NCBI GenBank assembly: GCA_005223085.1 | Contig: NJBP01000003.1 | Span: forward strand, 7,474-71,473 | Source: Candidatus Aerophobetes bacterium Ae_b3b | GTDB lineage: Bacteria; Aerophobota; Aerophobia; Aerophobales; AE-B3A | DNA: 64,000 nucleotides | Direction: 5' to 3' | Part shown: piece after piece, positions 11,150-36,594 of the stretch | How the letters are laid out: every line of letters starts with the position of its first letter | How positions within the stretch are numbered: the stretch's first letter is position 1 | Program-made: the position numbers and the translations under genes | Notes under the pieces: generated by a model | Seen by the model: only the letters and a program-made list of their open reading frames with translations | Told to the model about the DNA's origin: nothing | Databases searched by the model: none

Positions 11150-12424
11150 TCACTTCTTCATCATTTTTTCACTAACAACTGCAAATTTTGCTGGCCTTGG
11201 CCCATATGGTTCTTGCTTATATCTAACACCACTGTTAATTAAATACTCAACTAAGTCTCCCATGTTTTCTGTAGTGCCTGCCATAACAAGTGGTTTCATA
11301 ATTTCTTTTCTTAATTGTCCATCAGTTTTTAGCGCTTCAATAGTTTCCTTCCATGATTCATTATCCCTGCCCATGACCCTGATTCCTTTAACACTATTAA
11401 GGTTTAGCTCTTCGATTCCTGTCCTACCAGTTACAAATGTGTGAATATCCATATTGGTACCGGGAATCATGACTTTCTTTCCTCCCGCAGGAAGACCATA
11501 ATAAAATATCTTACCCCTCGGAGAAGCATACTCTATTACCATTTTTTGCAGTTTTTTCTGTCCGGTTAATTCAATACTTACAAATCCATCTTCTTGCCCA
11601 AGTTCTTCTTTTAACCGATTTAATTGTTGTTGATCGTCAGAATTTACAAAGTAAAAGTTAGCATCTAAATCCATTACACATCTTTTCATATACATCATAG
11701 CTGATTTTCCTCTGTAAATTAAAACAAAATTCTTAACCCCCTTGCTGGCAAAGTATGGGACCATATACAGTGCCTGAGCACCACAACCACCCCATATAGC
11801 CAGAGTTTCAGGCACTCTACCACTTTTTTCGCTAACGATTCTTTCCATTTTGACGGTATTTCCAAGTGGCTCTGCAAATGAGGGAAAGAAATTGAACTTC
11901 TCTATGTCTTGTGTTGGTTTTGCACAGCATTGGTGGATAGAGACAAATTCGGCAAAAGCTCCATTTCTTAGCCAATCTTTTGGATTCCCAGATTTATACC
12001 AGCCGAGAAAACCCTCTTTTTGGCATCTATCAAATTTTCCCTCTAAACACGAGCTACACTGTAAACATGGGTAATGCTCCTCACCAACAACTGTCTGGCC
12101 AATAAGAGCCTTATTAACATTTTCACCAACACCAACGATCCTTCCAGCAAATTCATGACCAAATACTGTCTTCTTTAAATCACCAGTTAAATCTACAAAT
12201 TTGTTTGCATCAGAGGCACATATAGAAATCCATAAAGGTTCTACTAAAACATCATCGGGTAGCATCTTTGGCAGGGGAACCTCTTCCAGAACAGTTTTTC
12301 CTCCCTTATAGGTAATCCATGCCTTCATTATTTCTGGGAGAGGATCCGGTATTTGATGTTTTGGCAATATAGATTTATAATCTGAGCCTATCGGTGTTAA
12401 TTCTAATTTAGAAGTAGTTTTCAC
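11150..12424 (-). CDS. Zinc-dependent alcohol dehydrogenase, threonine-dehydrogenase-like
   Basis: A 424-residue medium-chain dehydrogenase/reductase. The catalytic zinc ligands are C69 in ICASDANK and H90-E91 in GHEFAG. The four structural zinc cysteines C120, C123, C126 and C134 are all present. The nucleotide-binding loop reads IWGGCGAQAL, a variant of GxGxxG. The gene overlaps the KBL-like gene by four bases. This pairing is the classical threonine route: threonine is oxidised to 2-amino-3-ketobutyrate, which KBL cleaves with CoA to glycine and acetyl-CoA. The N-terminus is about 30 residues longer than typical TDH, so another beta-hydroxy amino acid or polyol as substrate is possible. 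Confidence 0.75.
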   Translation of the reverse strand: MKTTSKLELTPIGSDYKSILPKHQIPDPLPEIMKAWITYKGGKTVLEEVPLPKMLPDDVLVEPLWISICASDANKFVDLTGDLKKTVFGHEFAGRIVGVGENVNKALIGQTVVGEEHYPCLQCSSCLEGKFDRCQKEGFLGWYKSGNPKDWLRNGAFAEFVSIHQCCAKPTQDIEKFNFFPSFAEPLGNTVKMERIVSEKSGRVPETLAIWGGCGAQALYMVPYFASKGVKNFVLIYRGKSAMMYMKRCVMDLDANFYFVNSDDQQQLNRLKEELGQEDGFVSIELTGQKKLQKMVIEYASPRGKIFYYGLPAGGKKVMIPGTNMDIHTFVTGRTGIEELNLNSVKGIRVMGRDNESWKETIEALKTDGQLRKEIMKPLVMAGTTENMGDLVEYLINSGVRYKQEPYGPRPAKFAVVSEKMMKK

Positions 12425-13662
12425 TCCAAAATGCCTTCTTTTTTTCCTGTCTCTTGGAATGACTTCAGTGCATAATCAAGATCGTGCCTCGTATGTGAAG
12501 CTAATATCTGAACTCTTATAGTATCTTGACCTCTGGGAACAACAGGATAAGTTAAAGCTACCACATAGATTCCTCTTTGATATAAGTCAAAGACCATTTG
12601 CTTAGCCTTAATTGCATCGCCAATTAAAATAGGAACTATGGGATGAATCCCTTCAATTGTTTTAAAACCAATCTGATTTATTCCCTTTCTAAAATATTCA
12701 GTATTTTCTCTTAATCTCTCCAATAATCTTAATCCTTCATGGCTATCTAAAATCTCCAATGCTTTTAATGCAGCACCTGCCACTCCCGATCCTATTGGAT
12801 TTGAATACACATATAAAGGAGAAGTCTCTCTTAAATACTCAATAACCTTTTCATTGGATACAATAAAACCGCCGTCTACCCCCAAGCCCTTTCCTAATGT
12901 TGCGGTTATTATATCAATCCTATCTTCCTGGGTAACCTCTCCAGTGCCCCTTCCGGTTTTCCCATAAGCTCCTATTCCGTGTGAGTCATCTACAACTGTT
13001 ATAATTCCCTCTTCAAATTTTGGATCGTACTCCTCGGCCAAACAAGCTATATAGTGCAGGGGAGCATAATCTCCTCTCATACTAAATACACCATCGGTCA
13101 CTATAATTAATCTTTTCCCATTACCCACAGATTCATCTATGCACTTTCTGAGCTTGTCCATGTCACAGTGAGCATAAATTTTTTTCCTATCTCTGGGAAC
13201 TCCAGCAAATCTTATGGCCATAATTATACTGTTATGATTTAACTCATCGCTTATAATATAGGTATCCTTATCCACTAATGGAGCAATAATTCCGCAATTA
13301 GCAGCATAAGCAGAACTAAATATCATAGCAGCCTCTGTTTTATAAAACTCTGCTAGTTTTTTCTCTAATTCAATATGAGGCTCTTGTGTCCCGGAGATAA
13401 ACCTGACCGCACCTGGACCAACTCCAAACTTTAAATCTGCTTCATGTGCAGCTTTGATTAATCTTGGGTCATTAGAAATACCTAGGTAACTGTTGGAGGC
13501 AAAATTTAAGAGAGTGCGCTGGTCACTCATAACTATTTTTCTACCAAATCCATCTCCAGGAGGCACTATATCAACGATGACTTTTTCTTTCCCCTTCAGT
13601 CTACCTTCCTTCTCTAATAGTTTTAACTTTGCATCTAAAACAGATGTTAATTTATCAAGCAT
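12421..13662 (-). CDS. Alpha-oxoamine synthase family PLP enzyme (2-amino-3-ketobutyrate CoA ligase-like)
   Basis: A 413-residue fold-type-I PLP enzyme. K258 in ATLGKGLG is the expected Schiff-base lysine, D225/H228 in VVDDSHG hold the cofactor ring, and NFASNSYLG is the family N-terminal signature. Relatives are KBL (glycine C-acetyltransferase), BioF and ALA synthase. The overlap with the threonine-dehydrogenase-like gene and the lack of bio or hem genes favour KBL. The product glycine could feed the glycine cleavage system whose genes flank the island. An ATCTCTCCG-type stretch of the complement precedes the ATG, so the ribosome site is GGAGAG. A diverged copy of its first 88 codons lies at 22,685-22,953. 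Confidence 0.82.
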   Translation of the reverse strand: MLDKLTSVLDAKLKLLEKEGRLKGKEKVIVDIVPPGDGFGRKIVMSDQRTLLNFASNSYLGISNDPRLIKAAHEADLKFGVGPGAVRFISGTQEPHIELEKKLAEFYKTEAAMIFSSAYAANCGIIAPLVDKDTYIISDELNHNSIIMAIRFAGVPRDRKKIYAHCDMDKLRKCIDESVGNGKRLIIVTDGVFSMRGDYAPLHYIACLAEEYDPKFEEGIITVVDDSHGIGAYGKTGRGTGEVTQEDRIDIITATLGKGLGVDGGFIVSNEKVIEYLRETSPLYVYSNPIGSGVAGAALKALEILDSHEGLRLLERLRENTEYFRKGINQIGFKTIEGIHPIVPILIGDAIKAKQMVFDLYQRGIYVVALTYPVVPRGQDTIRVQILASHTRHDLDYALKSFQETGKKEGILE

Positions 13663-13663
13663 T

Positions 13664-13771
13664 TTTATCTCTCCGATATTTCATTGATGCTGTCATCAGG
13701 GCCTTGTTGTAGTTATCTCTCATCGACGGAGGTAAAAGCGGACTGATGACTTCCCACTGCCTGTCTGTAAA
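13664..13771 (-). pseudogene. IS5-family transposase N-terminal relic
   Basis: On the minus strand a 36-codon stretch reads TDRQWEVISPLLPPSM near its head (residues 2-17). This is the characteristic start of IS5/IS1182-type DDE transposases, normally written LTDEQWELIEPLLPP. A TGA directly precedes the stretch and it runs into the kbl start region, so only this scrap is left. Upstream, 13,772-13,923 holds a decayed frame starting with MKLAQLMKLIDDKEEAKKY interrupted by two TAG codons, which may be another transposase N-terminus (IS1595-like, weak). Together they mark the spacer upstream of kbl as an old insertion spot. Confidence 0.5.
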
Positions 13772-13923: not shown

Positions 13924-14802
13924 CTATCTAGAACAAAGTATCTTTCTCATTCGCTTTGGAAACTTAAGAGCGTTCCCAGTGATTATACAGACCACTATAT
14001 CATTTTCCTCTAGATCTACGTGTTTTAAGGCAGCGGCTGAGGCGGCAGAAGCTGGCTCTGATAATATACCTTGCTTAGCTAGGGAAATAGTTTCCTCAAC
14101 AAGCTCTTTGTCTGAAACAGAGACAAATTGCCCACCAGAATCATTTACAGCATTCGATATCTTAGGTTCCTCCAACCGGTAAAATCCATGAATACTGTCC
14201 GCAATTTTGGTGAATTGTGAGGTAGCAGCTATCATGCGCGGCGAAACCCCAGCTCTCTTCAATCCTTCCCAGACTCCGACAAGGTGAGTCCCATTGTTGG
14301 TAGGGCAGACTACGACATCCGGTGAGAACGGCGCAATTTCCCTTCCAATATAGGCATTGCCTACGATCTTGGCTTGGCAATACCCAGCATTTGCATTGTA
14401 GTATCCATGTTTTTCAGCGGCCTCGATTACCTTCTGTGTTGCAGCCATATAGTCGCCCTCAACTATTTCGATTTCGGGTTTGAAGATTCTGATGAGATCC
14501 AACTTTTCTTTACTGACATTGCTGCCAACAAATATCTTTGCTTTCAATTCATTCATGTACATAAAGGCTGATAGCGATAAGGCGGCGTTGCCGGAACTAG
14601 CACAAACAGCAGTGCCATAGCCTTTCTCAATCATCTCTAAAACAACCATGGCACTACCTCTGTCCTTGTGTGTACCTGTGGGGTTTACCGCCTCGAGTTT
14701 GGCGAAGACATTAGCCCCATACCTCTCTCTCCCTTTGGGAATCTTGACTAAGGGGGTATTCCATGTTGGCTCCTGTAGCTTATAACTTATCATTCCATCC
14801 AC
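13924..14802 (-). CDS. PLP-dependent fold-type-II enzyme, threonine-synthase-like
   Basis: A 292-residue PLP enzyme of the threonine synthase / serine-threonine dehydratase / cysteine synthase superfamily. K46 in TGTHKDRGS is the Schiff-base lysine in the form typical of threonine synthase. SSGNAALS (about residues 69-76) is the phosphate-binding loop; ITGNALKFP near the end resembles the threonine synthase C-terminus. It is shorter than usual (over 350 residues), lacking the long N-terminal region. The gene is 10 bp downstream of the M55 peptidase, in the D-peptide cassette. It could act as a lyase on an amino acid released from peptides; exact reaction unknown. Confidence 0.7.
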   Translation of the reverse strand: MDGMISYKLQEPTWNTPLVKIPKGRERYGANVFAKLEAVNPTGTHKDRGSAMVVLEMIEKGYGTAVCASSGNAALSLSAFMYMNELKAKIFVGSNVSKEKLDLIRIFKPEIEIVEGDYMAATQKVIEAAEKHGYYNANAGYCQAKIVGNAYIGREIAPFSPDVVVCPTNNGTHLVGVWEGLKRAGVSPRMIAATSQFTKIADSIHGFYRLEEPKISNAVNDSGGQFVSVSDKELVEETISLAKQGILSEPASAASAAALKHVDLEENDIVVCIITGNALKFPKRMRKILCSR

Positions 14803-14811
14803 CTCAAAGGT

Positions 14812-15654
14812 TCAGTACTCAAGTTTCATCCGAACGCTCTCACCAAGCATGAACATGGCTTGAAAAGCTTTGAAGAGCTCCAAGAAGTCGCTGGAAGTCA
14901 AAGACACTGTCGTACCACTCTTTCTTTCTGTGCCAGGGATTAGAGAGGCTGCATCCGCCATGTTCGTCATAAAGAAATCCACTTCTATGATCGTTGGGGT
15001 GTTGTAAACGAGCGGTGACATATCTTTTATTCTCCTTACTGCCATTCTGGCCATTTTTTTGATCACTTCGTTTGCCTTTGATAGAGGCAAACACTTTGCG
15101 GAGGTCATATTTATAGCCTTCTTTATGACAGCTACTTCGACTGTACCAAGCTGAGACTTTGCCTCCTCGGCTACGACGTTGTCACCTACTACTAGGGTGG
15201 TAGGCACGTTGAAATATCCGGCAATACCTGCACTGACGCCGAGTTCTCCAACCGATTTACCATTGAGTCTGACGTCTCTTATACTCAGAGGGCAAAAAGA
15301 ATGGTTCAAAACACCAGGGTGTGAGCCCATTTTCGCGTGGTAGCCTATGAGGAATGCGGCATCAAAGGTCTCATCAACTCCCTCCATCATGCATAGGGGT
15401 TTAGGTTGACCAGTTACGAGCTCGACGTTCTCGTCGTCGAACCTGTCGATCAAGAGGTTCCTCATCGTGTTGTGCGAATCGTTTATAACAAACTCCGTAG
15501 CATTTGCCTCTTTGGCCCCTTTGATTGCGGCGTTTACGTGTTCACACATAATGTGTCTGTCCCTGCCCCACTCTCCTGGATCAGCATTCTTTGAAAATTC
15601 CCAGTGTGTCTTACCAGCTCTGCCTTCCATATCTGCTGAAATAAATACTTTCAT
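14812..15654 (-). CDS. M55 family D-aminopeptidase (DppA type)
   Basis: A zinc D-aminopeptidase of 280 residues. D8, E10, H61 and H106 line up with zinc ligands known for Bacillus subtilis DppA (D8, E10, H60, H104), and an Glu near 137 can be the fifth. I place the start at ATG 15,654 because GGGAGG lies seven bases upstream; an in-frame start nine codons earlier has no ribosome site. In B. subtilis the same enzyme heads the dpp operon, and here too it lies next to a dipeptide ABC transporter on the same strand, with a 312-bp gap. Function inferred: release of D-alanine or other D-residues from imported wall peptides. Confidence 0.88.
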   Translation of the reverse strand: MKVFISADMEGRAGKTHWEFSKNADPGEWGRDRHIMCEHVNAAIKGAKEANATEFVINDSHNTMRNLLIDRFDDENVELVTGQPKPLCMMEGVDETFDAAFLIGYHAKMGSHPGVLNHSFCPLSIRDVRLNGKSVGELGVSAGIAGYFNVPTTLVVGDNVVAEEAKSQLGTVEVAVIKKAINMTSAKCLPLSKANEVIKKMARMAVRRIKDMSPLVYNTPTIIEVDFFMTNMADAASLIPGTERKSGTTVSLTSSDFLELFKAFQAMFMLGESVRMKLEY

Positions 15655-15678
15655 TTTTAATCCTCCCAGGGTCTTGCC

Positions 15679-15934
15679 CAAGTTTGTGGCAAAGTTATAG
15701 AATTAATGTAAGATTCTGTTTCATCTTCCGCTCTTTGAAAATAGCTCATCACAAGATGAGGCCTAAAAGATTTGGAACAAGCTATACCTTGAAGGCTGAC
15801 ACAAGAAAAATGGCCATCTTAAAAAGACGTCACGCTATTTATGAGTGTCCCTATGTGTGAGTATCTGTTTACCTAGAATTTTCGCTCAAATTAGCATTTG
15901 ACAACGAAAAGGACGAGCAATTGCCACAAACTTG
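15679..15934. repeat. Perfect 14-bp inverted repeat bracketing a 256-bp non-coding segment
   Basis: CAAGTTTGTGGCAA at 15,679-15,692 is repeated in inverse at 15,921-15,934 (TTGCCACAAACTTG). Between them I see no gene, only a small hairpin CTCATC-ACAA-GATGAG. The segment fills the gap between the M55 gene and the oligopeptide ATPase gene. The left arm ends at the ribosome site of the M55 gene. It has the form of a small non-autonomous element (MITE) or of two operator half-sites. I see no clear target duplication. Confidence 0.4.
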
Positions 15935-15966
15935 AGTAAATTTCCTCCTGCCCTTTTTTTAGATTA

Positions 15967-17007
15967 TCAGCTATACAAGAAGCAGGATACAAGATGTCCT
16001 TTATCTGGACCGATTAGCTTGGGCTCTTCTTTACTACACCTACTAAATGAAAACGGGCACCTCGTATGGAATCTGCATCCTGCTGGTGGATCAATAGGGG
16101 AAGGAACCTCCCCGGTAAGCTCTATTCTATCGATTCTGTAAACTTCGCTTAGCAGTGGGCTGGATGAGGCTAATGACTTGGTGTAAGGATGGAGGCACTT
16201 TTGAAAAAGCTCCTTAGTTGGTGCCAACTCCACCAGTTTACCCAAATACATGACACCAACAGTGTCCGAAACGTGACGTATCACAGAAAGGTCGTGTGCA
16301 ATGAAGAGATAAGTTAAATCCCTTTTGTTCTGCAATTCCATAAGGAGATTCAGTATTTGCGCTTGTATGGATGTATCCAGAGCGGTTACTGGCTCATCCA
16401 GCACGATGAATTTAGGTTCTGTCGCTAATGCGCGGGCTATTGCGGCCCTCTGCCGCTGTCCTCCACTTAGTGCTTTTGGTTTTTTCGTGTAAAATACCTC
16501 GCTGAGCCCGACCTGGCCAAGTAAGTCTAGGCAATATTCTTTTATCATGTCCCTCTTGACGATTTCATGATGATTGATCACCTCCTTTAACATATTTCCA
16601 ATTATCTTGTGTGGAGGCAAAGTCGAGTAGGGATTTTGAAATACGACTTGCACCTCCTTTCTAAGCTTTTTGAGCTGCCTATCTGCTAAAGAACGGATGT
16701 TCTGCCCGAAAACTCGAATGTTACCAGCAGTAATTGATTCGAGTCTAAGAACACACCTGCCTAAGGTCGACTTTCCGCAACCGCTCTCACCTACGAGTCC
16801 AAATGTCTCGCCTCTCCTTATGTCCAGGGAGATATCGTCTACAGCTTTAACATACTTCTGTTCCCTCACAAGGATTTTGTCGATAAAACCCTTTCTCAGC
16901 ACATAGTACTTTTTCAGATGGCCGATTTCTATAACTGTCTCATTTCGGGAGATTTCTTTCATTTTGTTCTTGTGGTCCGAGACTATATCTACATCCAACG
17001 TCAGCAC
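15967..17007 (-). CDS. Dipeptide/oligopeptide ABC transporter ATPase, DppF type (system 1)
   Basis: A 346-residue nucleotide-binding subunit. Walker A is GESGCGKST (73-81), the signature is LSGGQRQR, and Walker B is FIVLDEPVTALD. The C-terminal domain has the cysteine-rich PAGCRFHTRCPFS stretch typical of Dpp/Opp ATPases, often tied to an Fe-S cluster. The chosen start is GTG 17,007, overlapping the DppD stop; GGGGGT lies directly in front, so TTG a few codons in is an alternative. It is the last gene of the Dpp1 operon. Confidence 0.93.
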   Translation of the reverse strand: MLTLDVDIVSDHKNKMKEISRNETVIEIGHLKKYYVLRKGFIDKILVREQKYVKAVDDISLDIRRGETFGLVGESGCGKSTLGRCVLRLESITAGNIRVFGQNIRSLADRQLKKLRKEVQVVFQNPYSTLPPHKIIGNMLKEVINHHEIVKRDMIKEYCLDLLGQVGLSEVFYTKKPKALSGGQRQRAAIARALATEPKFIVLDEPVTALDTSIQAQILNLLMELQNKRDLTYLFIAHDLSVIRHVSDTVGVMYLGKLVELAPTKELFQKCLHPYTKSLASSSPLLSEVYRIDRIELTGEVPSPIDPPAGCRFHTRCPFSFSRCSKEEPKLIGPDKGHLVSCFLYS

Positions 17008-18011
17008 ACCCCCTGAAAACCGTGGTTCTTAGACCGCGATAGTCTCTTGGCATCTTCTGGTTTTATGCAACGAATACTGTGATTTTCATCGATTTTTCTA
17101 AGTTCTATACTTTCTTGGAGGCAGCCTTCATCCCCTATTGGACACCGAGGGTAAAATTTGCATCCTTGGTGAGGAATTTCACTGAGCTCGCCCATTATAG
17201 TTGGAATCTTACCCTTAGGTTCGTAGTATATTACGTTGGATCTAAGCAATCCGAATGTATAGGAGTGCAAGGGGTTTTCGAAAACGGTTTTCACCGTCCC
17301 CTGTTCCATTAATGTGCCAGCATACATTACATTCACATAGTCACATATGCGCTTGATGACTCCGAGATCGTGCGTTATCCACAGCACCGAAACACCTATC
17401 TCACCTATGAGTTCCTCGAACTCATTCAAAATCTGGTTTGCGATAGTTACATCTAGAGCTGTTGTCGGCTCATCCGCGATGATCAGTGACGGCTCGCAGC
17501 TCATTGCCATAGCGATCGTCACTCTTTGAATCATCCCACCGCTGAGTTCGTGAGGATAGTTGTCAAAACGTTTTTCCGGGTCCGAGATCCTAACTTTCCT
17601 GAATAGATCTATTGCCTTCGTCTTTGCCTCCTTCTGTCCAATATCTTGGTGGAGCTTCAAAACACTAGTAATCTGTTCTCCAACGGTAAACAGTGGATTG
17701 AGCGATACCATTGGATCCTGAAAGATCATCGAGATCTCATTCCCCCTGATTTTGAACTGCATCTCCTTCTCGCTTAATTCCCTTATATTTATACCTTTAA
17801 AAATTATCCCACCGGACACGATTCTACCTGTTTCCGGCAGGATCCTAAGGAGCGAGTTGGCAATTGTGGTCTTGCCACTTCCCGACTCACCTACGAGGCC
17901 AACTACCTCCCTTTCTCTTATCGAAAGGTCGGCACCATCCACCGCCTTGACGATTGCCCCGTTTCCCTCAAAGTACGTGTGGAGGTCCTTTATTTCTAGT
18001 AAATTCATCAT
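17001..18011 (-). CDS. Dipeptide/oligopeptide ABC transporter ATPase, DppD type (system 1)
   Basis: A 336-residue ATPase with Walker A GESGSGKTT (41-49), signature LSGGMIQR, Walker B LIIADEPTTALD and the terminal CKFYPRCPIG cysteine cluster. The signature with Met after GG is the usual DppD/OppD variant, while DppF has LSGGQRQR, so the two form the normal heterodimer. Its ATG shares one base with the DppC stop (TAATG), so the genes are translationally coupled. Confidence 0.93.
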   Translation of the reverse strand: MMNLLEIKDLHTYFEGNGAIVKAVDGADLSIREREVVGLVGESGSGKTTIANSLLRILPETGRIVSGGIIFKGINIRELSEKEMQFKIRGNEISMIFQDPMVSLNPLFTVGEQITSVLKLHQDIGQKEAKTKAIDLFRKVRISDPEKRFDNYPHELSGGMIQRVTIAMAMSCEPSLIIADEPTTALDVTIANQILNEFEELIGEIGVSVLWITHDLGVIKRICDYVNVMYAGTLMEQGTVKTVFENPLHSYTFGLLRSNVIYYEPKGKIPTIMGELSEIPHQGCKFYPRCPIGDEGCLQESIELRKIDENHSIRCIKPEDAKRLSRSKNHGFQGVC

Positions 18012-18907
18012 TATTTCTCCAACATGTCTCGCAGGCCATCGCCGATCAGGCTAAAACCTATCACGGTATACATGATCCCAAGTGCTGGAAAAGTAGCAAT
18101 CCACCAACCCACCTGCAGCAACTGCCTCCCTTCGGCTATCTGCGCCCCCCACTCAGGAATTGGGGGTTGTGCACCAACGCCAACAAAACTGAGGGAAGCT
18201 GCAACTAATATAACGAGTGCACAGTCAAGCGAAGCGTAAACAATGGTCGGCGCGATGGAGTTCGGCATCAAATGCCCGAATATTATTCTTTTGTCCGAAA
18301 AACCAACAGCTTCAGCTGCTCTGACATAATCCTCTTCCTTTTCTGAGAGGTACCTACTTCTAACAATCCTAGCATACTGACACCAACTTACAATAGCAAT
18401 AGCAAAATACAAGTTTTTGAGACCGGGACCGAAGATAGCCATGATGGCAATGACAAGTACCAGAAAAGGAAAAGCCATAATCGAGTCAACAATGCGCATG
18501 ATTATGGTATCGATCCAACCCTCGTAATAACCGGAAAGTGCTCCTGCTAAGTTGCCTACGATGAAGGCGATTCCGACACCGATTACGCAGATTTTCACTG
18601 CTATCCAGGCGCCGTGGATCACCCTTGACATTACATCTCTCCCATACAGATCCGTGCCAAATAGGTGGCTAAGCCCTGGTGGTTCAAGGCTCTCAGTTAG
18701 GACCTGTTGGTACGGATCGTAAGGAGCGATGAAAGGCGCGAATATTCCTACCAGGGTTAATATACCGATCATTATCAGGCCGATTCTGCTATTAGGATTT
18801 CTGATAATTTTCTTTACTGTCTCCCATCTCGCGATGTTTTCATCGCCGAAGAGAAGGTTAATGGAACGAGATATTACACTGCCTGCATTCCTGTTATTCA
18901 CTCTCAA
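18011..18907 (-). CDS. Dipeptide ABC transporter permease, DppC type (system 1)
   Basis: A 298-residue inner-membrane permease with six predicted membrane segments. The N-terminal DppC signature is visible as FGTDLYGRDVMSR after the first helix. The ATPase-coupling EAA loop reads AAEAVGFSDKRIIFGHLMPN, and the C-terminal SLSFVGVGAQPP motif is characteristic of DppC/OppC. The gene overlaps DppB by four bases and DppD by one. Confidence 0.94.
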   Translation of the reverse strand: MRVNNRNAGSVISRSINLLFGDENIARWETVKKIIRNPNSRIGLIMIGILTLVGIFAPFIAPYDPYQQVLTESLEPPGLSHLFGTDLYGRDVMSRVIHGAWIAVKICVIGVGIAFIVGNLAGALSGYYEGWIDTIIMRIVDSIMAFPFLVLVIAIMAIFGPGLKNLYFAIAIVSWCQYARIVRSRYLSEKEEDYVRAAEAVGFSDKRIIFGHLMPNSIAPTIVYASLDCALVILVAASLSFVGVGAQPPIPEWGAQIAEGRQLLQVGWWIATFPALGIMYTVIGFSLIGDGLRDMLEK

Positions 18908-19845
18908 CTCCTGTAGATCCGTGGGTCTATTAATCCATAAATGATGTCAACGATGTAGTTGTTTAACATTATTGCTAATGCAAATACAAGACTAATGCCC
19001 TGTATCAAGGGATAGTCCCTTACTATCACGGCATCTAATAACATCGCCCCTATCCCAGGTAGAGAGAATACTGTTTCGATCACCACCGACGATCCGAGGA
19101 GCCACCCTAAGTTCAAACCAAGAACGGTAATAGTAGGCAAAAGCGCATTCTTGAGGACATACTTCAGATAAATTGTCCTGTCCGAGAAGCCATACGTCCT
19201 TGCTGTTCGTATATACTCTTTTTGCAAAACCTCGATCATATCTGACCTAAGAGTTCTCGTAACAAGAGCAGTCAGAAACAGTCCGAGGATGAAACTGGGG
19301 AGAAATAGGTGATATATGTTATCTAGCAGACCTGACCCCCATCCCCTAGTGGGGAACCAACCCAATCGGAGGGCGAAGATATTGAGGAATAGAAGACCCG
19401 TCCAGAATTCCGGCATCGAGAAGACGAAAAGTGACGAGATTCGCGCCACATAATCGGGGAACTTGCCACGGTGTTTCGTCGCCCATAAGCTGAGCGGAAG
19501 CGAAATGATAACGCAAAATACTGCTGACATAAAAACCAGCGAGAGCGTCACTCTTAACCTTGAAAAAATCAACTCAGTAATTGGAGCCTTATAGCGAATT
19601 GATGTTCCCAGGCTTCCACGTGCAAGCTGTGTGAGAAACACGTAAAACTGCTTGTGTAGTGGCTCATTGAGACCGAGACTCTTCCTCAGTTGCTCGAGGC
19701 GCTCCGGTGTAGCCATGATACCAAGTATATTCTTGGCTGGATCACCAGGTATGAAATGCAGCATAAGGAATACTATAAACAAAACAATGAATAAAACGGG
19801 TATCATTTCGAGAAATCTTCTTAGAGCATATCGTTCAAGAGACAT
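18904..19845 (-). CDS. Dipeptide ABC transporter permease, DppB type (system 1)
   Basis: A 313-residue permease starting with a membrane helix and the DppB hallmark FIPGDPAKNILG. The coupling loop is ARTYGFSDRTIYLKYVLKNA, followed by the conserved VIETVFSLPGIGAML. A stem-loop separates it from the SBP gene upstream, after which the permease and ATPase genes follow with overlaps. AGGAGGT-type complement sits just before the ATG. Confidence 0.94.
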   Translation of the reverse strand: MSLERYALRRFLEMIPVLFIVLFIVFLMLHFIPGDPAKNILGIMATPERLEQLRKSLGLNEPLHKQFYVFLTQLARGSLGTSIRYKAPITELIFSRLRVTLSLVFMSAVFCVIISLPLSLWATKHRGKFPDYVARISSLFVFSMPEFWTGLLFLNIFALRLGWFPTRGWGSGLLDNIYHLFLPSFILGLFLTALVTRTLRSDMIEVLQKEYIRTARTYGFSDRTIYLKYVLKNALLPTITVLGLNLGWLLGSSVVIETVFSLPGIGAMLLDAVIVRDYPLIQGISLVFALAIMLNNYIVDIIYGLIDPRIYRS

Positions 19846-19883
19846 AGGAGGTCACCCTAAGGTAAGCCGTTCATTGATATTTG

Positions 19884-19924
19884 GAACCATGGTACCTTGG
19901 GAGGAACCCACGGCACCATGGTTC
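19884..19924 (-). other. Intercistronic stem-loop behind SBP gene of Dpp1
   Basis: GAACCATGGT (19,884-19,893) and ACCATGGTTC (19,915-19,924) form a perfect 10-bp stem with a 21-base loop. It starts 12 bases after the SBP stop and lies before the DppB gene. It has no T-run, so it fits partial termination or 3' protection of the SBP message better than full termination. Confidence 0.6.
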
Positions 19925-19935
19925 TCGGGAATATT

Positions 19936-21459
19936 TTACTCTTCTATCCAGACATATTCCCACCTGTAGAAATCGTTAGCCGGGACCAGGAAACCATGTA
20001 CGTTTGTCCGCATCGCTGTCGGGTTAGGAGTCGTCGTGACAAAGATCTGGGCGGCATCCTCATGTACTATTCTTTGTATGTCATAGTAAATCTCTCTTCG
20101 CTTCTCTTCGTCCAGGGCTACTCGCCCTAAAGCGTACAACTCTTCCACCCTGAGGTTGTGATAGTCGGAGAAATAAGCTTGATTTCCTGCATAGGATATT
20201 CCGAAGTCGGTTAACAGATCATCATCTAATATGTCACTCGTATAGTAGTCAGGTGAAAGTTCATACTTCCTCGCAATTAGTCGATCCCACCTTGTTCCCT
20301 CTTCAACCTTTTCGATGGTAGCCTCGATGCCAATATCCCTCAGATTCTGCTGGAGAATCGTTGCCATACTGATCATCATAGGCTCCCCGGCAGTGGCCAA
20401 AATGGTCGTCTTAAATCCTTTTTCGTATCCAGCCTCCTTCAAAAGCTGCTTGGCTTTTTCTGGATCGTAGGAGTATGGTTCTAGCTGATCATTGTAGTAC
20501 TGAACTGGCGGCATGTAGGATGGAGCTATCTCACCGTATCCGAAGAGTACGGTGTCAATGAAGCCCTGCTTGTTCATGGCATAGTTTAGAGCTTGTCTGA
20601 CCTTCACATTGTTGAATGGCTCAATGCCGCAGTTAATTTTAACGAAGTCGTGGCGCCAAATTGTATCGACCGAGACTTTTACATCGGGGTCAGCTCTGAG
20701 GATCTCGATCTCACTGAATGGTACATAAGCGGCGACGTCAACGCTTCCGTCGCGAACTGCGAGTGTCCTCGATGTTGCGTCGGGCATTATGTAGTAATAG
20801 AGTTTGTCCACCTTGGGTTGTCCTTCTCGCCAATAGTCTTCAAATTTGGAAAATAGTATCTCCTCGCCAGGTTTCCAATGTTCGAATTTGAACGGACCGG
20901 CCCCTATCGGATGTCGTCCGAACTTTTCGGTGCCACCAACTTCCAGGAAGTATTTCTCTGGAATTATGGCGGCATTGAACATAGCTAAATCCGCCAGTAT
21001 CGGGGCATATGGAGCGCTCAATCTTATCTCGACAGTGTACCTATCCACAGCCACCATCTCCTCAATCGGTTTGAACATATCCGCATAGGGACATTGCTCT
21101 GGGTCACGCGTCCTGTTCAGTGAAAATACGACGTCTTCAGCAGTCACTTCGTTTCCATTGTGAAATTTTGCACCTTTCCGGAGATGGAAGGTGTAGATCA
21201 AATTGTCATCCGAGACCTCCCATGACTCAGCCAAGTCAGGTTCGATATATGTGGAATCATCAGATACCCGGACCAAACAATCATGAGCATTGTGCAAAGC
21301 CCATAGCGACGGATTGTCGGAGGGACCAACTGGATCCAAGGTCTTAGGTTCCGAGATCCAAGCCACTCTCAACACGCTCTCACACTTTTCTGCTCCAAGC
21401 CCAACCACAATGGCTAAAAGCATCGAAATCGTTAGTAGTGTTACAATCCCTCTCCTCAT
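19936..21459 (-). CDS. Dipeptide ABC transporter substrate-binding protein (SBP family 5, system 1)
   Basis: A 507-residue exported binding protein. Residues 1-22 form a Sec signal peptide with no clear lipobox. The family-5 signature lies in the TYTFHLRKGAKFHNGNEVTAEDVVFSL region (visible in parts around residues 95-120). The protein captures peptides for the DppBCDF complex encoded downstream. Its ATG overlaps the stop of a 22-residue upstream frame as ATGA, and a stem-loop follows its stop. Neighbouring M55 D-aminopeptidase suggests D-residue peptides as cargo (inference). Confidence 0.92.
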   Translation of the reverse strand: MRRGIVTLLTISMLLAIVVGLGAEKCESVLRVAWISEPKTLDPVGPSDNPSLWALHNAHDCLVRVSDDSTYIEPDLAESWEVSDDNLIYTFHLRKGAKFHNGNEVTAEDVVFSLNRTRDPEQCPYADMFKPIEEMVAVDRYTVEIRLSAPYAPILADLAMFNAAIIPEKYFLEVGGTEKFGRHPIGAGPFKFEHWKPGEEILFSKFEDYWREGQPKVDKLYYYIMPDATSRTLAVRDGSVDVAAYVPFSEIEILRADPDVKVSVDTIWRHDFVKINCGIEPFNNVKVRQALNYAMNKQGFIDTVLFGYGEIAPSYMPPVQYYNDQLEPYSYDPEKAKQLLKEAGYEKGFKTTILATAGEPMMISMATILQQNLRDIGIEATIEKVEEGTRWDRLIARKYELSPDYYTSDILDDDLLTDFGISYAGNQAYFSDYHNLRVEELYALGRVALDEEKRREIYYDIQRIVHEDAAQIFVTTTPNPTAMRTNVHGFLVPANDFYRWEYVWIEE

Positions 21460-21875: not shown

Positions 21876-21904
21876 ACTATACCACCATTCTCGAAATTTG
21901 TCAA
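21876..21904 (-). promoter_or_regulatory. Strong sigma-70 promoter before GntR-like gene and Dpp1 operon
   Basis: Read on the minus strand, TTGACA (21,904-21,899) and TATAGT (21,881-21,876) are 17 bp apart. This is at the right edge of module 1. The DNA just upstream is the repeated segment shared with the promoter of module 2 at 45.7 kb. Confidence 0.75.
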
Positions 21905-22036
21905 TTCTTTTGGCTATAATGATACTGCCCACTTTCTATTAGATTTTAGAGAGTTCGGAAAAGCTTTTATTTTATTTCAAAAGCGAAGGGAGTTATCTAC
22001 CAAATCACTATTTTTCACATTATTTTTCAGAACGTT
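21899..22036. repeat. Repeat A, copy 1: spacer between module promoter and lplA scrap
   Basis: About 135 bp resembling 45,741-45,888. Shared blocks include TTCTTTTGGCTA, AATGATACT, TTAGATTTTAGAGA and AACGTTATCCCCAA. Copy 1 has about 13 extra bases near its right end. Both copies sit between the promoter of a leftward operon and core-gene scraps. Part of it may be the decayed 3' half of the sigma-like gene that stands at this position in the intact locus at 62 kb, since KIVIW and F-x-IK can be read in both. Confidence 0.7.
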
Positions 22037-22490
22037 ATCCCCAATCTCTTCTCAAATCCCAGAATGAGACTATTTATTATTTTTCCCCGATCTTTTTGCT
22101 CTTTCCTACTTTTAGGGGTAATCTTGCTGTCGATCAGAATCGACCCGTGCTGGAAAAAGGCTTTGTTTTTCCTCCTTTGAGCGCTTCCCCCAATTTTTCT
22201 TCCGTCTTCAACGACATCGTATTTGGAGGGATTGACAAAACAAAAATAAGGATCAGGTCTTTCAGTCTCTTTTCTTTCTAACTCGGCGTTTATCCCCAAA
22301 TTTTGTAGACCGAGGATTATCGCCTCATGAACTAGCTGCTGCGTTTTTGTAATATCCCTAAAGGCAGGAAATTCATTGGTAGAGCAAGCTAAAGAATAGG
22401 TTATCTCATTTCTATGAAGTATCGCACCTCCTCCGGCAAAGCGCCTCACAATGATTAGTTTTTGTCTTTTATATCTTTGCAAGGAAGGTC
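22027..22490 (-). pseudogene. Fragment of lipoate-protein ligase gene (scar 1)
   Basis: About 150 codons closely similar to the middle of lplA at 62,543-63,274. They start at the residues matching [10 protein letters not shown] and end after GFEKRLGI, where the last 30 or so residues are replaced by two codons and a stop from repeat A. The lipoate-site motif RRFAGGGAILH and KIGGSAQRR are preserved. Differences from the intact gene are mostly third-base changes, so this copy diverged as a working gene before it was broken. The N-terminal 60 or so residues are absent. Confidence 0.9.
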
Positions 22491-22491
22491 T

Positions 22492-22686
22492 AGGCTAGCT
22501 CGCTTGACCAGCCTGGAGAGGCATAAAGTGGACCAGGATTATGCCGAATCGGTAAAAAAAATAGGAAAGCTAGAGGAGATGCTGGTAAAGGAGCCCCTGA
22601 TTTGGGCAACCATTAAGGAAGAACTTGTCCAGATTAAGCAAAAATATGGAGAAGAGAGGCGTACCCGGATTAAGACCGTAGTAAAG
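22492..22686 (+). pseudogene. Fragment of gyrA (scar 1)
   Basis: 65 codons matching GyrA residues 424-489, starting at [12 protein letters not shown] and ending at KTVVKD. Compared with the intact gene at 7,762-10,170 there are conservative changes (for example KKIGKLEEML for [10 protein letters not shown]) and many silent ones. Orientation is the same as intact gyrA. The left end is joined to the lplA fragment around AAGGAAGG/AGGCTAGC, the right end to kbl at GATAAACC. Confidence 0.92.
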
Positions 22687-22953
22687 GATAAACCTGACCG
22701 CACCGGGACCAACTCCAAACTTTAAATCTGCTTCATGTGCAGCTTTGATTAATCTTGGGTCATTAGAAATACCCAGGTAACTGTTGGAGGCAAAATTTAA
22801 GAGGACACGCTTATCACTCATAACTATTTTTCTACTAAATTCATCTTGAGGAGGCACTATATCAACAATGACTTTTTCTTTCCCCTTCAGTCTACCTTCC
22901 TTCTCTAATAGTTTTAACTTTGCATCTAAAACAGGCGTTAGTTTGTTAAGCAT
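22685..22953 (-). pseudogene. Fragment of KBL-like gene, first 88 codons (scar 1)
   Basis: Codons 1-88 of a kbl copy, very close to 12,421-13,662 (for example VLDAKLKLLEKEG and FASNSYLGIS are the same), then a breakpoint into antisense gyrA. The ribosome site TTGGAGG and ATG are intact, so a peptide of 127 residues with a meaningless tail could still be made. The catalytic lysine region is gone. Upstream homology with the intact copy stops just before the start codon. Confidence 0.92.
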
Positions 22954-22976
22954 CTTCTATCCTCCAACGCCATCCG

Positions 22977-27882: not shown

Positions 27883-28191
27883 TTTTGAATTAAGGATGAT
27901 GCATAGCCGTAGCGTAGTGCAAATCCTGGTTTGTTTATCGTCCTCGTCCATGGGATACGACGTTTTACCAATCGGTGTCTCGGTCGGAGATCACGGCCAA
28001 AACTCACGGGTTACCTATTGCAGAGAGCTTCTCTCCTCCGTTTCCCCTTAAACGAGGTTAGCTATTCCTTTGACCAAGGAATCTCCGCTCCCGAATTCAA
28101 ACATCACCCTTGTTCACATTATCTACCTTGATTCTCCTCTTGTCAAATGCTCCGAATGTCGACTAAAGAACTACCAGAATGACCTTTATCT
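27883..28191. other. Non-coding gap with promoter
   Basis: Between the leader frame and the DUF917 stop there is no gene on either strand. A promoter at 28,118-28,146 reads toward the Pot1 operon. Confidence 0.6.
28118..28146 (-). promoter_or_regulatory. Sigma-70 promoter for the Pot1-racemase operon
   Basis: On the minus strand TTGACA (28,146-28,141) and GATAAT (28,123-28,118) are 17 bp apart. It gives Pot1 and the racemase their own transcript, separate from DUF917 upstream, with a leader of about 300 bases. Confidence 0.72.
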
Positions 28192-29325
28192 TCAACCTTC
28201 TCCTCTCTTAGCGACGGTTTCGATGGGTTGGTACTCAATGTCAAAGCCAAAGTGAGGTGGTCCCAGAATATCGAGCCCTTTGGGGGAGCGGAACTGTTCT
28301 ACCGCACGTAACCCGATAACCGCTACAGAGTGTCCTTCAGCAATATGAGAGTTGGCGAAGGGCTCTCCGCTTTCGCGGTCAACTACAATTATCATGTCTG
28401 GACTGGTAACGTAAGGCTCGCCGTTAAGCCACGAGATGTGGTTTTCATTCTTAAACCAAATCTTAAATTCTTGTCCAGCAAATCGGCCGATCCCAGACAG
28501 GGTGTGGGTACCCCAATAGTATCCTTCTTTATCTTCCCACTCTTTGTTCGAAATATGCCCCTCAAACAGCAACCATCCATTCAATTGTTTTACCGTTTCT
28601 TCCACTGGGTTCCGGCCAGCCGCCCTGCTGGTGCGAATTAATCGACCAATTTCTAGACATTTGGAAAGAGTCTTAGGAATGAGCGCCCTCTTCATATCTT
28701 TACCCTTGAGCAAAAACCCTGCCTGACCTGCTAGTCCAAACGAGGCAGCAGCGAGAAATTTCCCCATTCTTTCCGCCATCTCATATCCGGTGCTTTCCGT
28801 AATAATAGCCTTGTTGCCATACTTATCTATACTAGCAATTGGCCAGAGACTGAGACCGTTGAGATAGGGAGTTGTTTGAGGAATTTCAGGAATTGCGCGT
28901 CCCGTATAATCACCGTCTACTATGGGGACCCTCAACCGAGCTGCCGCCACAACTGCACCGGGAGTGTTCGATCCACCAAGTTCAATAGGAACGATCGCTT
29001 GGATCTCCGCTTTGGTATAGCTCTCTAGCAAACGCACAGCCTCAGCCTGGATGCTCTTAACCGGCTCCTTAGTAAGACCAAGTGCCTGCATTCTCTGTTT
29101 CGCCTCCTCTGTACGTGGTGCAATGGAACCCATAAGAAAGGGACACACCGTCCAGGCATCATCCTTGACCTCTTCGTACGGGGTGAACGAGAGAGTCAAA
29201 TCTTCATCCAGTGCCGTCCGGAGCCAATCTATCCCATCTTTAGGATCACCGCCCCCTCCTGTTCCCATGAGGGTACAACCCCGCACGAAATCATGAATGT
29301 CTTGCTCGTTCTGAATCTTTACCAT
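28192..29325 (-). CDS. DUF917 family protein (S-methyl-thiohydantoin desulfurase-like)
   Basis: A 377-residue protein of the DUF917 family, recognised by the N-terminal GTGGGGDPKDG (residues 22-32), the EIQAIVPIELGGSNTP centre and the C-terminal HFGFDIEYQP segment. Characterised relatives act on thiohydantoin or lie next to hydantoinase genes. The ATG is preceded by AAAGGAGGA. Co-location with a hydantoin-racemase-like gene and a transporter suggests a heterocycle-salvage cassette; no hydantoinase is in the window, so the pathway is incomplete or different. Confidence 0.82.
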   Translation of the reverse strand: MVKIQNEQDIHDFVRGCTLMGTGGGGDPKDGIDWLRTALDEDLTLSFTPYEEVKDDAWTVCPFLMGSIAPRTEEAKQRMQALGLTKEPVKSIQAEAVRLLESYTKAEIQAIVPIELGGSNTPGAVVAAARLRVPIVDGDYTGRAIPEIPQTTPYLNGLSLWPIASIDKYGNKAIITESTGYEMAERMGKFLAAASFGLAGQAGFLLKGKDMKRALIPKTLSKCLEIGRLIRTSRAAGRNPVEETVKQLNGWLLFEGHISNKEWEDKEGYYWGTHTLSGIGRFAGQEFKIWFKNENHISWLNGEPYVTSPDMIIVVDRESGEPFANSHIAEGHSVAVIGLRAVEQFRSPKGLDILGPPHFGFDIEYQPIETVAKRGEG

Positions 29326-29407
29326 ACCATCCTCCTTTGCCCAATAGTGTCAAACGTAAATATTCAGTGAGGAACGTTCCATGTTGTTGACTGCAAAGAG
29401 CAGAGCG

Positions 29408-29487
29408 GGTAGCCGCACCCTTTAGGGTGCGTATAAACGCAGGCTAAGATTTTGCGCAGGCTGAAGCCTGCGGCTACCAGCGGCTAC
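29408..29487. repeat. REP-like palindromic pair
   Basis: Two imperfectly mirrored palindromes: CGCACCC-TTTA-GGGTGCG at 29,414-29,431 and CGCAGGCT-GA-AGCCTGCG at 29,455-29,472. They are enclosed by a 9-bp inverted repeat GGTAGCCGC (29,408-29,416) / GCGGCTACC (29,470-29,478), with GCGGCTACC repeated once more to 29,487. This is the form of a bacterial interspersed mosaic element (paired REPs). It sits between the Dpp2 operon end and DUF917. Confidence 0.7.
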
Positions 29488-29567
29488 CGAGATTGCTTCG
29501 CTGGCAATGGGATTCACTAAGTATTTACCCTTCCTCCCAGTTCAGTTGGCGCAGTCTCCGCATTGGT

Positions 29568-30587
29568 TCATTCTAGGACCACGAGCTCTTCTGCTCGAGC
29601 TGCGAGTTCCTCAGCTCGATGGCACCAAACCAGGTGCCCAGGTCCCACTTTTACTGGAGAAGGTAACTCCTGGGAACATCTGGATTCAGCTATAGAGCAT
29701 CTTGGATGGAAGGCGCACCCACCCGGCGGGTTCACTGGGCTTGGGATCTCACCTTCTTTGCTCATTTCTCGAGGTTTAACGCGTTCTTCCTCTTTGGATA
29801 CGACCGGCGTAGCTGCAATCAGGGTCTTCGTATATGGATGGACAGGATGACTAAAGAGCATTTCCATGGTGCCCAGTTCATAAATCTTTCCCAGATACAT
29901 CACCCCTGCCCTGGCAGCAATTGTCCGCACTAAGCCTAGATTATGAGTAATAAAGAGATACGATAAGGCTAATTCCTTCTTGAGTCTAAGGAAAAGATTT
30001 ATCAGTTTTGCTTGCACGGATACATCCAACGCTGATGTCGGTTCATCCAAAACCAGGAAAGAAGGATTTACAGCTAAGGCTCGAGCGATGGCAATCCTCT
30101 GTCTCTCACCCCCACTGAGCGCAGATGGATATTTGTACATATAGCGGCTTGGCATCTCTACCTGTCCCAGCAATGTATGGATTATTCTCTTTCGCTCAAC
30201 CCTTGATTTCCCTATTCCATGTATGATAAGCGGATCCTCTAAAATACTCATGACACTGCGCCGAGGATTTAATGAGGACTTGGGATCTTGAAAAACCATC
30301 TGTACCTCGCGGCGGAACCGTCCGATAGTTTGCTTGGTCAATTTTGACAAATTTTGTCCCTTGAAATAAATCATCCCACTTGTGGGGTTATAAATTTGCA
30401 CAATAGTTTTCGCCACTGTAGATTTCCCTGATCCTGACTCTCCAATTAATCCAAAGATCTCTCCTTTCTGCACGTCAAAAGAGACTTTGTCCACTGCTTT
30501 GACATGCGCCACTATCTTATGAAGGAGGCCTGAGCGAATAGGGAAATATTTCACTAGATTCTCGACCTTCAACACTGGCTCACTCAT
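29568..30587 (-). CDS. Dipeptide/oligopeptide ABC transporter ATPase, DppF type (system 2)
   Basis: A 339-residue ATPase with Walker A GESGSGKST, signature LSGGERQR, Walker B FLVLDEPTSALD, and the CAFHPRCSIAE cysteine cluster. I use ATG 30,587, which overlaps the DppD stop as ATGA and has GGAGGGGG upstream; a frame extension of 40 codons lies inside DppD and has no sense. Last gene of the Dpp2 operon. Confidence 0.93.
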   Translation of the reverse strand: MSEPVLKVENLVKYFPIRSGLLHKIVAHVKAVDKVSFDVQKGEIFGLIGESGSGKSTVAKTIVQIYNPTSGMIYFKGQNLSKLTKQTIGRFRREVQMVFQDPKSSLNPRRSVMSILEDPLIIHGIGKSRVERKRIIHTLLGQVEMPSRYMYKYPSALSGGERQRIAIARALAVNPSFLVLDEPTSALDVSVQAKLINLFLRLKKELALSYLFITHNLGLVRTIAARAGVMYLGKIYELGTMEMLFSHPVHPYTKTLIAATPVVSKEEERVKPREMSKEGEIPSPVNPPGGCAFHPRCSIAESRCSQELPSPVKVGPGHLVWCHRAEELAARAEELVVLE

Positions 30588-31585
30588 CCGCCCCCTCCGT
30601 GGTACAAGTAGCAAGCCACATGTTGCTTTGTTGAAACTTTCACCATAGGCGGTTTTTGCTGGGCACATTTTTCCATAGCCTGAGGGCATCGGGGATGGAA
30701 TCGACACCCAGAAGGAGCCTCAGTATAGTCGGAGAGGGTGCCTGGTATGCCTTCGGCTAAGGCTTCCCCTGTGAGGCGAGGTACAGAAGAAAGCAGGCCT
30801 TGAGTATACGGATGTTTGGGGTCATCGAAAATCTCAACTGTTTGTCCTTCTTCTACGACTCGCCCTGCATACATAATATAGACTCTCTCCACCGTTTCTC
30901 GAACGACCCCTAGATCATGGGTAATTAACAAAACCGCGATGCCAGCCTCCTTCACTAGACTCTTCAATAGGGAGAGAATTTGGGCCTGAATGGTGACATC
31001 TAAAGCACTACCCGGCTCATCCGCGATTAGAAACCGCGGCCTATTAACCAGCGCCATGGCGATCAGCACTCGCTGCCGCATCCCTCCGCTGAGCTCGAGA
31101 GGATATAGACTGAGGATGCGCCTGGGATCAGGCAATTGCACCGATGTCAGCGCCTCCATAGCTATCCCCCGAACCTTTGTTTTGGTAAGTGCACCATCAT
31201 CTCGAATCCAGCGATGGCCAAAGCGAATTACGTCAAATATTTGCTGGCCCACGGTGAACACGGGATTGAGTGCACTGAGAGGATCTTGGAAGATCATGGA
31301 GATCGTCTTGCCCTTCATTCTGAGGAGTTCAATAGGGGCCGCCTTTAATACATCTCGGCCAGCTAAGAGAACTTGTCCCTGAGGGAAGAGAGCAGGGGGA
31401 GATCTCAGAATTCCCATGGCCGTTTTCATGGCCACGGTTTTGCCACACCCTGTTTCCCCGACTAATCCCACATGCTCTCCCCCTCGAACATATAAGCTCA
31501 CTCCGTCTAATACCCGCGAGACGCCCTCGTAAACGCGAAACCAGACGTGCAAGTCCCGTATATCCAATATAGCTTTTTCTTCCAT
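30584..31585 (-). CDS. Dipeptide/oligopeptide ABC transporter ATPase, DppD type (system 2)
   Basis: A 333-residue ATPase: Walker A GETGCGKT (with Thr instead of Ser), signature LSGGMRQR, Walker B FLIADEPGSALD, terminal CRFHPRCPQA cysteines. It starts 3 bp after the DppC gene ends. The sequence is clearly diverged from the DppD of system 1, so the two systems are not a recent duplication. Confidence 0.93.
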   Translation of the reverse strand: MEEKAILDIRDLHVWFRVYEGVSRVLDGVSLYVRGGEHVGLVGETGCGKTVAMKTAMGILRSPPALFPQGQVLLAGRDVLKAAPIELLRMKGKTISMIFQDPLSALNPVFTVGQQIFDVIRFGHRWIRDDGALTKTKVRGIAMEALTSVQLPDPRRILSLYPLELSGGMRQRVLIAMALVNRPRFLIADEPGSALDVTIQAQILSLLKSLVKEAGIAVLLITHDLGVVRETVERVYIMYAGRVVEEGQTVEIFDDPKHPYTQGLLSSVPRLTGEALAEGIPGTLSDYTEAPSGCRFHPRCPQAMEKCAQQKPPMVKVSTKQHVACYLYHGGGG

Positions 31586-31588
31586 CTG

Positions 31589-32506
31589 TTAGACCCCTTC
31601 TTCCACAGCCAGGACATCGCGCAATCCATCACCCAACAGATTGAATCCCAAGATAATAAAGAAAATTGCCAAGCTAGGGAAGACCGTCATCCACCATCTC
31701 TCCGGTAGATACTTGGCACCAAAAGAAATCATCGTTCCTAGATCTTCTGCGGGAGGCTGAGCACCTAAGCCTAAGAAGCTCAATCCTGCCCCGACCAGGA
31801 TAACAAAGCCGGCATCCAGGGTAATCTTCACTATGACCGGTGAGGCACAATTAGGAAGAATATCTTTGAAGATTATTCTTAAAGGGCTAGCTCCCAATAC
31901 CTTGCTGGCTTGGACAAATTCCTCTGTTTTGATGGAGCGGGTGATACCGTTCACCAGGCGACAGTGCCATGTCCACCAAATGGAGGCCACTGCCAGCATG
32001 GCTTTATCGATGCTGGGAGTGAAAGCGGCACAGATTGCCAAGGCCATCACCAGGGCAGGCAGAGATAAGAAAACGTCAGTCACCCTCATTATTACTGTTT
32101 CAGTCTTTCCACCCATATATCCTGAAATAAGACCAAGGAAAACCCCGACTGGCACGCTGATGCCTAATACCACCGCAGTAAGCATAAGGGAAATCCGAGA
32201 ACCAAAGATTATGCGAGTGAAAACATCACAGCCTAGTGCATCTGTTCCCAACCAATGTGATTTGCTTGGTGCTTGAAAGGCGTTTTGAAAATCAGTAAAT
32301 GCTCCAGCATGTTTGGGGTAGGGGGTGACATAGGGAGCAAAAATAGCCAAGAGCACGCATAAGAGCACCATAACCCCACCGACAAGAGAGATCGGATTGC
32401 GTCTGAACTTATACCATCCTCTTCCCAAACGATCCTTGATGATCATCCATCGCGTCTCATTCAATCCCGTGGTTACCTGATGGTGGGATGCTCGAGTAGA
32501 CATCAC
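31589..32506 (-). CDS. Dipeptide ABC transporter permease, DppC type (system 2)
   Basis: A 305-residue permease with an N-terminal cytoplasmic tail, LGTDALGCDVFTRI signature, coupling loop ASKVLGASPLRIIFKDILPN and GLSFLGLGAQPP. Six membrane segments are predicted from the hydrophobic pattern. It is 14 bp behind DppB. Confidence 0.93.
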   Translation of the reverse strand: MMSTRASHHQVTTGLNETRWMIIKDRLGRGWYKFRRNPISLVGGVMVLLCVLLAIFAPYVTPYPKHAGAFTDFQNAFQAPSKSHWLGTDALGCDVFTRIIFGSRISLMLTAVVLGISVPVGVFLGLISGYMGGKTETVIMRVTDVFLSLPALVMALAICAAFTPSIDKAMLAVASIWWTWHCRLVNGITRSIKTEEFVQASKVLGASPLRIIFKDILPNCASPVIVKITLDAGFVILVGAGLSFLGLGAQPPAEDLGTMISFGAKYLPERWWMTVFPSLAIFFIILGFNLLGDGLRDVLAVEEGV

Positions 32507-32520
32507 AACCTCCTTTTGGT

Positions 32521-33549: not shown

Positions 33550-33566
33550 GCTGTTCCTTTCTAGGA

Positions 33567-33597
33567 AAAGGGAGGGAAGTTTGACTCCCCTCCCTTT
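33567..33597 (-). other. Intercistronic stem-loop behind SBP gene of Dpp2
   Basis: AAAGGGAGGG (33,567-33,576) pairs perfectly with CCCTCCCTTT (33,588-33,597), a 10-bp stem and 11-base loop, between the SBP stop and the DppB start. Confidence 0.65.
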
Positions 33598-33614
33598 GAG
33601 CCTCTGTGCCTAGG

Positions 33615-35228: not shown

Positions 35229-35291
35229 AAACCTCCTTTCGGTCTAATGCTCCTTACAGGATCGCACGTGCATATTTGCTCCGTACGGTCT

Positions 35292-35327
35292 TCAGTAATG
35301 TCCACCACCTCCTTTCTTTGATGGCAT
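35292..35327 (-). CDS. Possible 11-codon leader ORF before Dpp2 SBP
   Basis: ATG at 35,327 opens MPSKKGGGGHY followed by TGA. GGAGGTGGTGG, a strong anti-16S match, lies inside the frame without a start codon in reach downstream. Weak AAGGG precedes the ATG. It could be a leader peptide or only the footprint of a structured leader. Confidence 0.25.
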   Translation of the reverse strand: MPSKKGGGGHY

Positions 35328-36573: not shown

Positions 36574-36594
36574 CGATCTTTCACCTCACTTTAA

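Follow-up and report, generated by a model that had tools for sequence, protein, structure and literature searches.

Flexible genomic islands of the replacement type are exchanged through homology in their flanks, as has been documented (Lopez-Perez et al. 2014, PMC4033161). The orphan immunity gene arrays of the Vibrio cholerae T6SS show successive one-sided insertions at a single locus, for which homology-facilitated illegitimate recombination (HFIR) has been proposed and by which older versions are pushed along and remnants stay behind (PMC5361080). HFIR gives one-sided insertions with 3–10 bp of microhomology in most cases (PMC3240628); usually about 1 kb is inserted together with a deletion of similar size, and such events are rare (PMC3240628 and references there).

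Here we describe an interval with broken core genes in the draft MAG of an uncultured deep-sediment bacterium, Candidatus Aerophobetes bacterium Ae_b3b (2.04 Mb, 86 contigs, 88.6% complete, 0.4% contaminated), whose nearest named relatives found are Candidatus Aerophobetes MAGs. The window, i.e. the whole stretch of DNA that was analysed, comprises 64,000 nt (G000:C29:7474-71473). We refer to gyrA-fabD-tdh-kbl as block A, to spacer-lplA-gcvPB as block B and to the content between them as X. The window reads, in order, A, X1, scar 1 (B then A), X2, scar 2 (B then A), X3 and B, and the coordinates of all parts are collected in Table 1.

Table 1. Blocks, islands and scar fragments in the 64,000-nt window, in window coordinates.
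Feature	Position	Strand	Evidence
Resident gyrA (block A)	7762-10170	+	Pfam (GyrA)
Resident fabD (block A)	10167-11090	+	Pfam (FabD-type acyltransferase)
Resident tdh (block A)	11150-12424	-	Pfam (ADH of ADH/aminotransferase pair)
Resident kbl (block A)	12421-13662	-	Pfam (aminotransferase of ADH/aminotransferase pair)
X1: threonine-synthase-like PLP-dependent enzyme, DppA-like, dipeptide ABC transporter and binding protein	13924-21459	-	NCBIfam/Pfam
Scar 1 spacer, normally downstream of lplA; promoter-like motif TTCTTTTGGCTATAATGATACTGC at left end	21903-22034	.	82% to 45753-45866
Scar 1 lplA fragment, codons ~61-211, open frame of 151 aa	22035-22488	-	88.8% DNA identity, no stops
Scar 1 gyrA fragment, codons ~425-490, open frame	22492-22690	+	92.7%, in-frame translation
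Scar 1 kbl fragment, codons 1-~88 and 12 bp upstream	22687-22965	-	92.5%, translation
X2: Asp/Glu racemase, ABC transporters, S-Me-THD family protein, peptidase, liv-type transporter, second Asp/Glu racemase	22977-45671	-	Pfam
Scar 2 spacer, same lplA-downstream spacer as scar 1	45753-45908	.	82% to scar 1
Scar 2 lplA fragment, 57 bp	45892-45948	-	84% to 62949-63005 (self-BLAST)
Scar 2 fabD 3' fragment, ~codon 174 to stop, 135 codons, no stops, and 9 bp past the stop	45932-46343	+	
X3: spermidine/iron-type and sugar-type ABC transporters, FGGY kinase, D-serine dehydratase-like protein, others	46511-61932	-	Pfam
Full-length lplA (block B)	62543-63274	-	Pfam LplA domain
gcvPB 3' part (block B), cut by contig end	63247-64000	-	Pfam GcvP2_C

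The three X regions are unrelated transporter islands and not copies of each other, their proteins being only distant paralogues, which rejects the idea that entire A-X-B units, with the contents they have now, were duplicated in tandem. X1 was without counterpart in 20 relatives, save for a 145-bp match in one of them (G003), and X3 showed partial matches only. Inside X2, a conserved non-coding leader (43670-43807, minus strand) precedes the liv-type binding-protein gene (42280-43599); it is also found in three other genomes (G004, G011 and G014, 74–83% identity) and in contig C3 of a further relative, G008 (hereafter G008:C3), is predicted to form a long helix in which both partners of three pairs have changed, matched no Rfam family, and is a candidate cis-regulatory RNA. 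Two interspersed repeats were also observed. One, of about 176 bp with near-inverted ends (GTAAATAYTCAGTGA...), is MITE-like, lies at 29355-29532, has full or partial matches at more than 10 other places in the genome and is missing at the corresponding place in G008:C3; the other, of about 130 bp, lies at the X3/B boundary (62112-62245) and has two further matches in this genome and three in G001, the nearest sequenced species of the genus.

Scar 1 contains a mosaic of lplA, gyrA and kbl (22035-22965) with 89–93% identity to the complete copies that the contig also carries. Self-BLAST of the window matched its lplA piece to 62641-63094 (88.8%, E = 2e-168), its gyrA piece (22492-22695) to 9034-9238 (92.7%, E = 2e-79) and its kbl piece to 13396-13674 (92.5%, E = 1e-112). 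This bears out a sequence-only reading of the window, which had placed pieces of these three core genes within about 1 kb, in the same orientations and approximate codon ranges. The extent which that reading gave to the mosaic held for the core pieces, and a left edge at 21903 is now added, with the lplA-downstream spacer ahead of the lplA piece. The sequence at 21903-22044 is 84.5% identical to positions 344-485 of G008:C3, where it sits directly downstream of lplA. The LplA Pfam domain was found in the scar fragment as well as in the full-length gene, and the fragment is 95% identical across 201 bp to an lplA start on another contig of the bin, C55. This was the one further lplA start detected when the bin beyond the window was checked, by targeted searches only, for gyrA, fabD, tdh, kbl and lplA pieces; these searches returned no other gyrA, fabD, tdh or kbl pieces, which occur on contig C29 alone.

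The order within scar 1 is spacer, a deletion of about 180 bp, lplA codons 61-211, gyrA codons 425-490 and kbl codons 88-1, hence to the two joints recognised in the first reading, lplA to gyrA (J2) and gyrA to kbl (J3), a third is added between spacer and lplA (J1), where TTATCCC stands on both sides of the deletion. That joints lie in short similar sequences was upheld at J3, an imperfect repeat (GTTAACCT versus GATAAACCT), and failed at J2, which has almost no microhomology, the proposed AAGG/AGG match being very weak. The fragments are collinear, and the gyrA-to-kbl step does resemble an internal deletion of a gyrA-fabD-tdh-kbl copy, as had been proposed. J2 is a candidate for the original illegitimate joint.

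The layout of scar 2 (45753-46343) is like that of scar 1: spacer, deletion, a short lplA piece and then the 3' part of fabD. The stretch 45605-45908 is 93.7% identical to G008:C3 positions 633-318, and the fabD fragment is 89.3% identical to resident positions 10688-11090 (self-BLAST) and 90.4% identical to the fabD of G001, with the match continuing 9 bp beyond the G001 stop codon. About 8 of 11 bases are shared at the first joint of scar 2 (S2J1) and about 15 of 17 at the second, between lplA and fabD (S2J2). Four of the five joints across both scars (J1, J3, S2J1 and S2J2) thus sit at short imperfect repeats, and joints of this kind fit deletions between such repeats. Internal order and orientation are identical in the two scars, running from spacer through lplA to a piece of the A cluster, hence the scars mark B-to-A seams. 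B-to-A junctions between stacked A-X-B units offer the best explanation for the lplA-gyrA order. The promoter-like motif TTCTTTTGGCTATAATGATACTGCNCACTTT at 21903-21938 and 45753-45788 recurs intergenically across several Aerophobetes genera.

Scar pieces and resident genes differ by 7–11%, and the value between G001 and the resident gyrB-gyrA-fabD is 8.7% (91.3% identity over 4.8 kb). Pooled differences by codon position (37/20/65, p = 3e-6) are near the pattern between resident genes and G001, i.e. like that of orthologues, and the reading frames of all scar 1 pieces and of the scar 2 fabD piece are open, with no stops. Third-position bias and open frames together indicate that the pieces diverged as working genes to the level of sister species, evolving as genes during most of that divergence, and were broken recently. 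Fewer changes are unique to the scar pieces (n = 33; 9/7/17 by codon position, p = 0.08 taken alone) than to the resident genes (n = 51) or to the G001 genes (n = 56), which also indicates that breakage was recent. The pieces had first been taken for plain copies of the genome's own genes, a claim which this between-species level of third-position-biased divergence in open frames does not support; a plain recent duplication is ruled out by the same divergence and codon-position bias. Judged by their sequence, the pieces are not old in-place duplicates, and import from a sister species would fit them better than decay of a duplicate in place. A more elaborate version, in which A-X-B was doubled in an ancestor, functional copies diverged, X blocks were replaced and surplus core genes lost, produces B-to-A seams directly, without an illegitimate insertion step, and is compatible with the deletion joints. 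We regard it as unlikely, because redundant gyrA, fabD, kbl and lplA would have to remain under selection until they had diverged by 7–11%, the X blocks are not duplicates and no such gene duplicates were found in G001.

X2 is joined to each of the core flanks elsewhere, each flank on a separate relative's contig. In G001, fabD is followed within about 140 bp by X2 from 36150 on, in the same orientation, this part of X2 holding a truncated nitroreductase-like gene and then an M20 peptidase. G008:C3 carries window positions 28101-45908 at 98–99% identity over most of the length and continues into lplA; from 45.0 kb on, through the racemase-spacer-lplA flank, divergence climbs to about 9%, and lesser peaks stand near 29.5, 38.5 and 43.5 kb. 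A near-identical X2 beside a flank of about 91% identity is the mark of a recently exchanged island. G008 belongs to another genus, and the fabD it has itself is only 55% identical at the protein level, hence G008:C3 was either transferred or misbinned; in both cases X2 has recently travelled between lineages with flanks about 9% apart. More distant relatives have different genes after fabD, which restricts the interval to this genus at most. G014, from another family, has a sigma-factor-like gene after lplA and next the leader sequence known from X2, an arrangement which hints that X2-like genes beside lplA are old. None of the relatives' genomes searched had the same seams as scars 1 and 2, no relative had both core flanks of the interval on one contig, and an ancestral A-X2-B unit was not found whole on any one contig.

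We favour, with modest confidence, the reading that scar 1 is a decayed seam between neighbouring A-X-B units which were stacked via one-sided recombination of imported islands. The interval between gyrA-fabD(-tdh-kbl) and lplA-gcv would hold lineage-specific X content, mostly transporter and amino-acid genes, that moves between species through recombination in the conserved flanks, and X1, X2 and X3 would have been added in tandem rather than swapped for each other. Most likely, one end of a donor A'-X'-B' would be joined through homologous recombination and the other end through a non-homologous or microhomology joint, as in HFIR, so that every addition would leave a B-to-A' joint; surplus partial core genes would then be trimmed, after insertion, by deletions between short imperfect repeats. 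The events would have followed in this order, and DNA would have been taken up by the cell; a ComEC homologue in the genome makes such uptake possible, although ComEC alone does not show competence. It counts against stacking that the data come from a draft MAG, that the seams are shared by no other genome searched, that A-X2-B is not whole on any contig and that G008:C3 sits in the bin of another genus and may be misbinned, and against HFIR at this locus that it is rare and usually inserts about 1 kb, where the insertions here would have to be much larger.

Seams similar to those expected from stacking would be left by tandem duplication with exchange of the middles, and also by integration of a circle. 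A circular or circularised A'-X'-B' donor integrating by a single crossover in A or B would give A-X1-B-A'-X2-B, i.e. both addition and B-to-A seams, and in Escherichia coli linear DNA that escapes degradation tends to form circles, which integrate by single crossover (PMC3240628). This route seems to us quite improbable, as no direct trace of a circle was seen and no plasmid or phage gene was recognised among the Pfam- and NCBIfam-annotated genes of the window. Capture of host gene pieces by a mobile element appears least credible, verging on negligible: the repeated promoter-like motif on the left edge and the further short interspersed repeats within the window would suit it, yet the pieces keep chromosomal order, no transposase was recognised beside the scars, inverted repeats are absent at both (the sole one in the regions tested lies at 61941-62111) and the motif stands alone in intergenic regions elsewhere. 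The motif at 21903-21938 was rejected as a mobile element end, being promoter-like and intergenic in relatives, with no transposase among the neighbouring ORFs listed. An RNA or tRNA attachment site was likewise rejected, there being no Rfam or tRNA match in the window.

As the source is a MAG, the contig could also join DNA from several co-occurring relatives, either in assembly or in binning. Several related assemblies break at the gene lplA. Two contigs of G005 (L030 4019-4159 and L031 1-141) overlap by exactly 141 bp inside it, which fits the k141 in the contig name and resembles a branch in the assembly graph, so that lplA may occur in more than a single context in that sample. Furthermore, the end of C29 (62880-64000) and the start of C55 (L027 1-1121) carry two versions of lplA-gcvPB with 93.7% identity, which may represent two loci or two strains. 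Assembly breaks in lplA are expected where strains vary, and are also a reason for care about the contig. An artefact nevertheless strikes us as very doubtful, since lplA and gyrA have no common k-mer that would allow an assembler to jump, a 57-bp piece stands between two joints in scar 2, the order is identical in both scars and G001, a separate assembly, has a similar truncated joint beside fabD.

If the stacking of imported islands is real, one can read from the seams how an uncultured lineage gathered transporter islands, including the order, donor divergence and joint nature of successive imports, and island exchange through flank homology can misfire, adding content instead of replacing it. 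It is conceivable, and we put it forward tentatively, that gyrA-fabD/lplA-gcv is a recombination hot spot of Aerophobetes where islands from other species are habitually appended, so that several versions of the interval gather in a single genome, with seam order equal to acquisition order. The leftover core-gene pieces may be misread by gene finders and assemblers.

Overall, the locus is a variant of known island behaviour. Much as in replacement flexible genomic islands, a variable interval would lie between conserved core genes and be exchanged between divergent lineages via recombination in the flanks, and the sign of recent exchange is present, X2 being mostly 98–99% identical to G008:C3 and the flank about 91%. 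Unlike those islands, three contents are stacked, separated by remnants of A and B, instead of being cleanly replaced, and the cargo consists of transporters, where theirs is surface polysaccharide. In contrast to additive islands on mobile elements, no integrase, transposase or repeat boundary was recognised at the scars. Successive additions at one locus which leave remnants would be shared with the V. cholerae T6SS arrays, whereas the units here are islands of 8–23 kb and what remains is from core genes instead of immunity genes. The closest documented process is HFIR, which combines one homologous joint with one joint of short or no homology, as may have been the case here (microhomology is almost absent at J2 and about 15 of 17 bases at S2J2); its experimental inserts are about 1 kb, whereas the insertions here would have been at least 8 kb and later trimmed.
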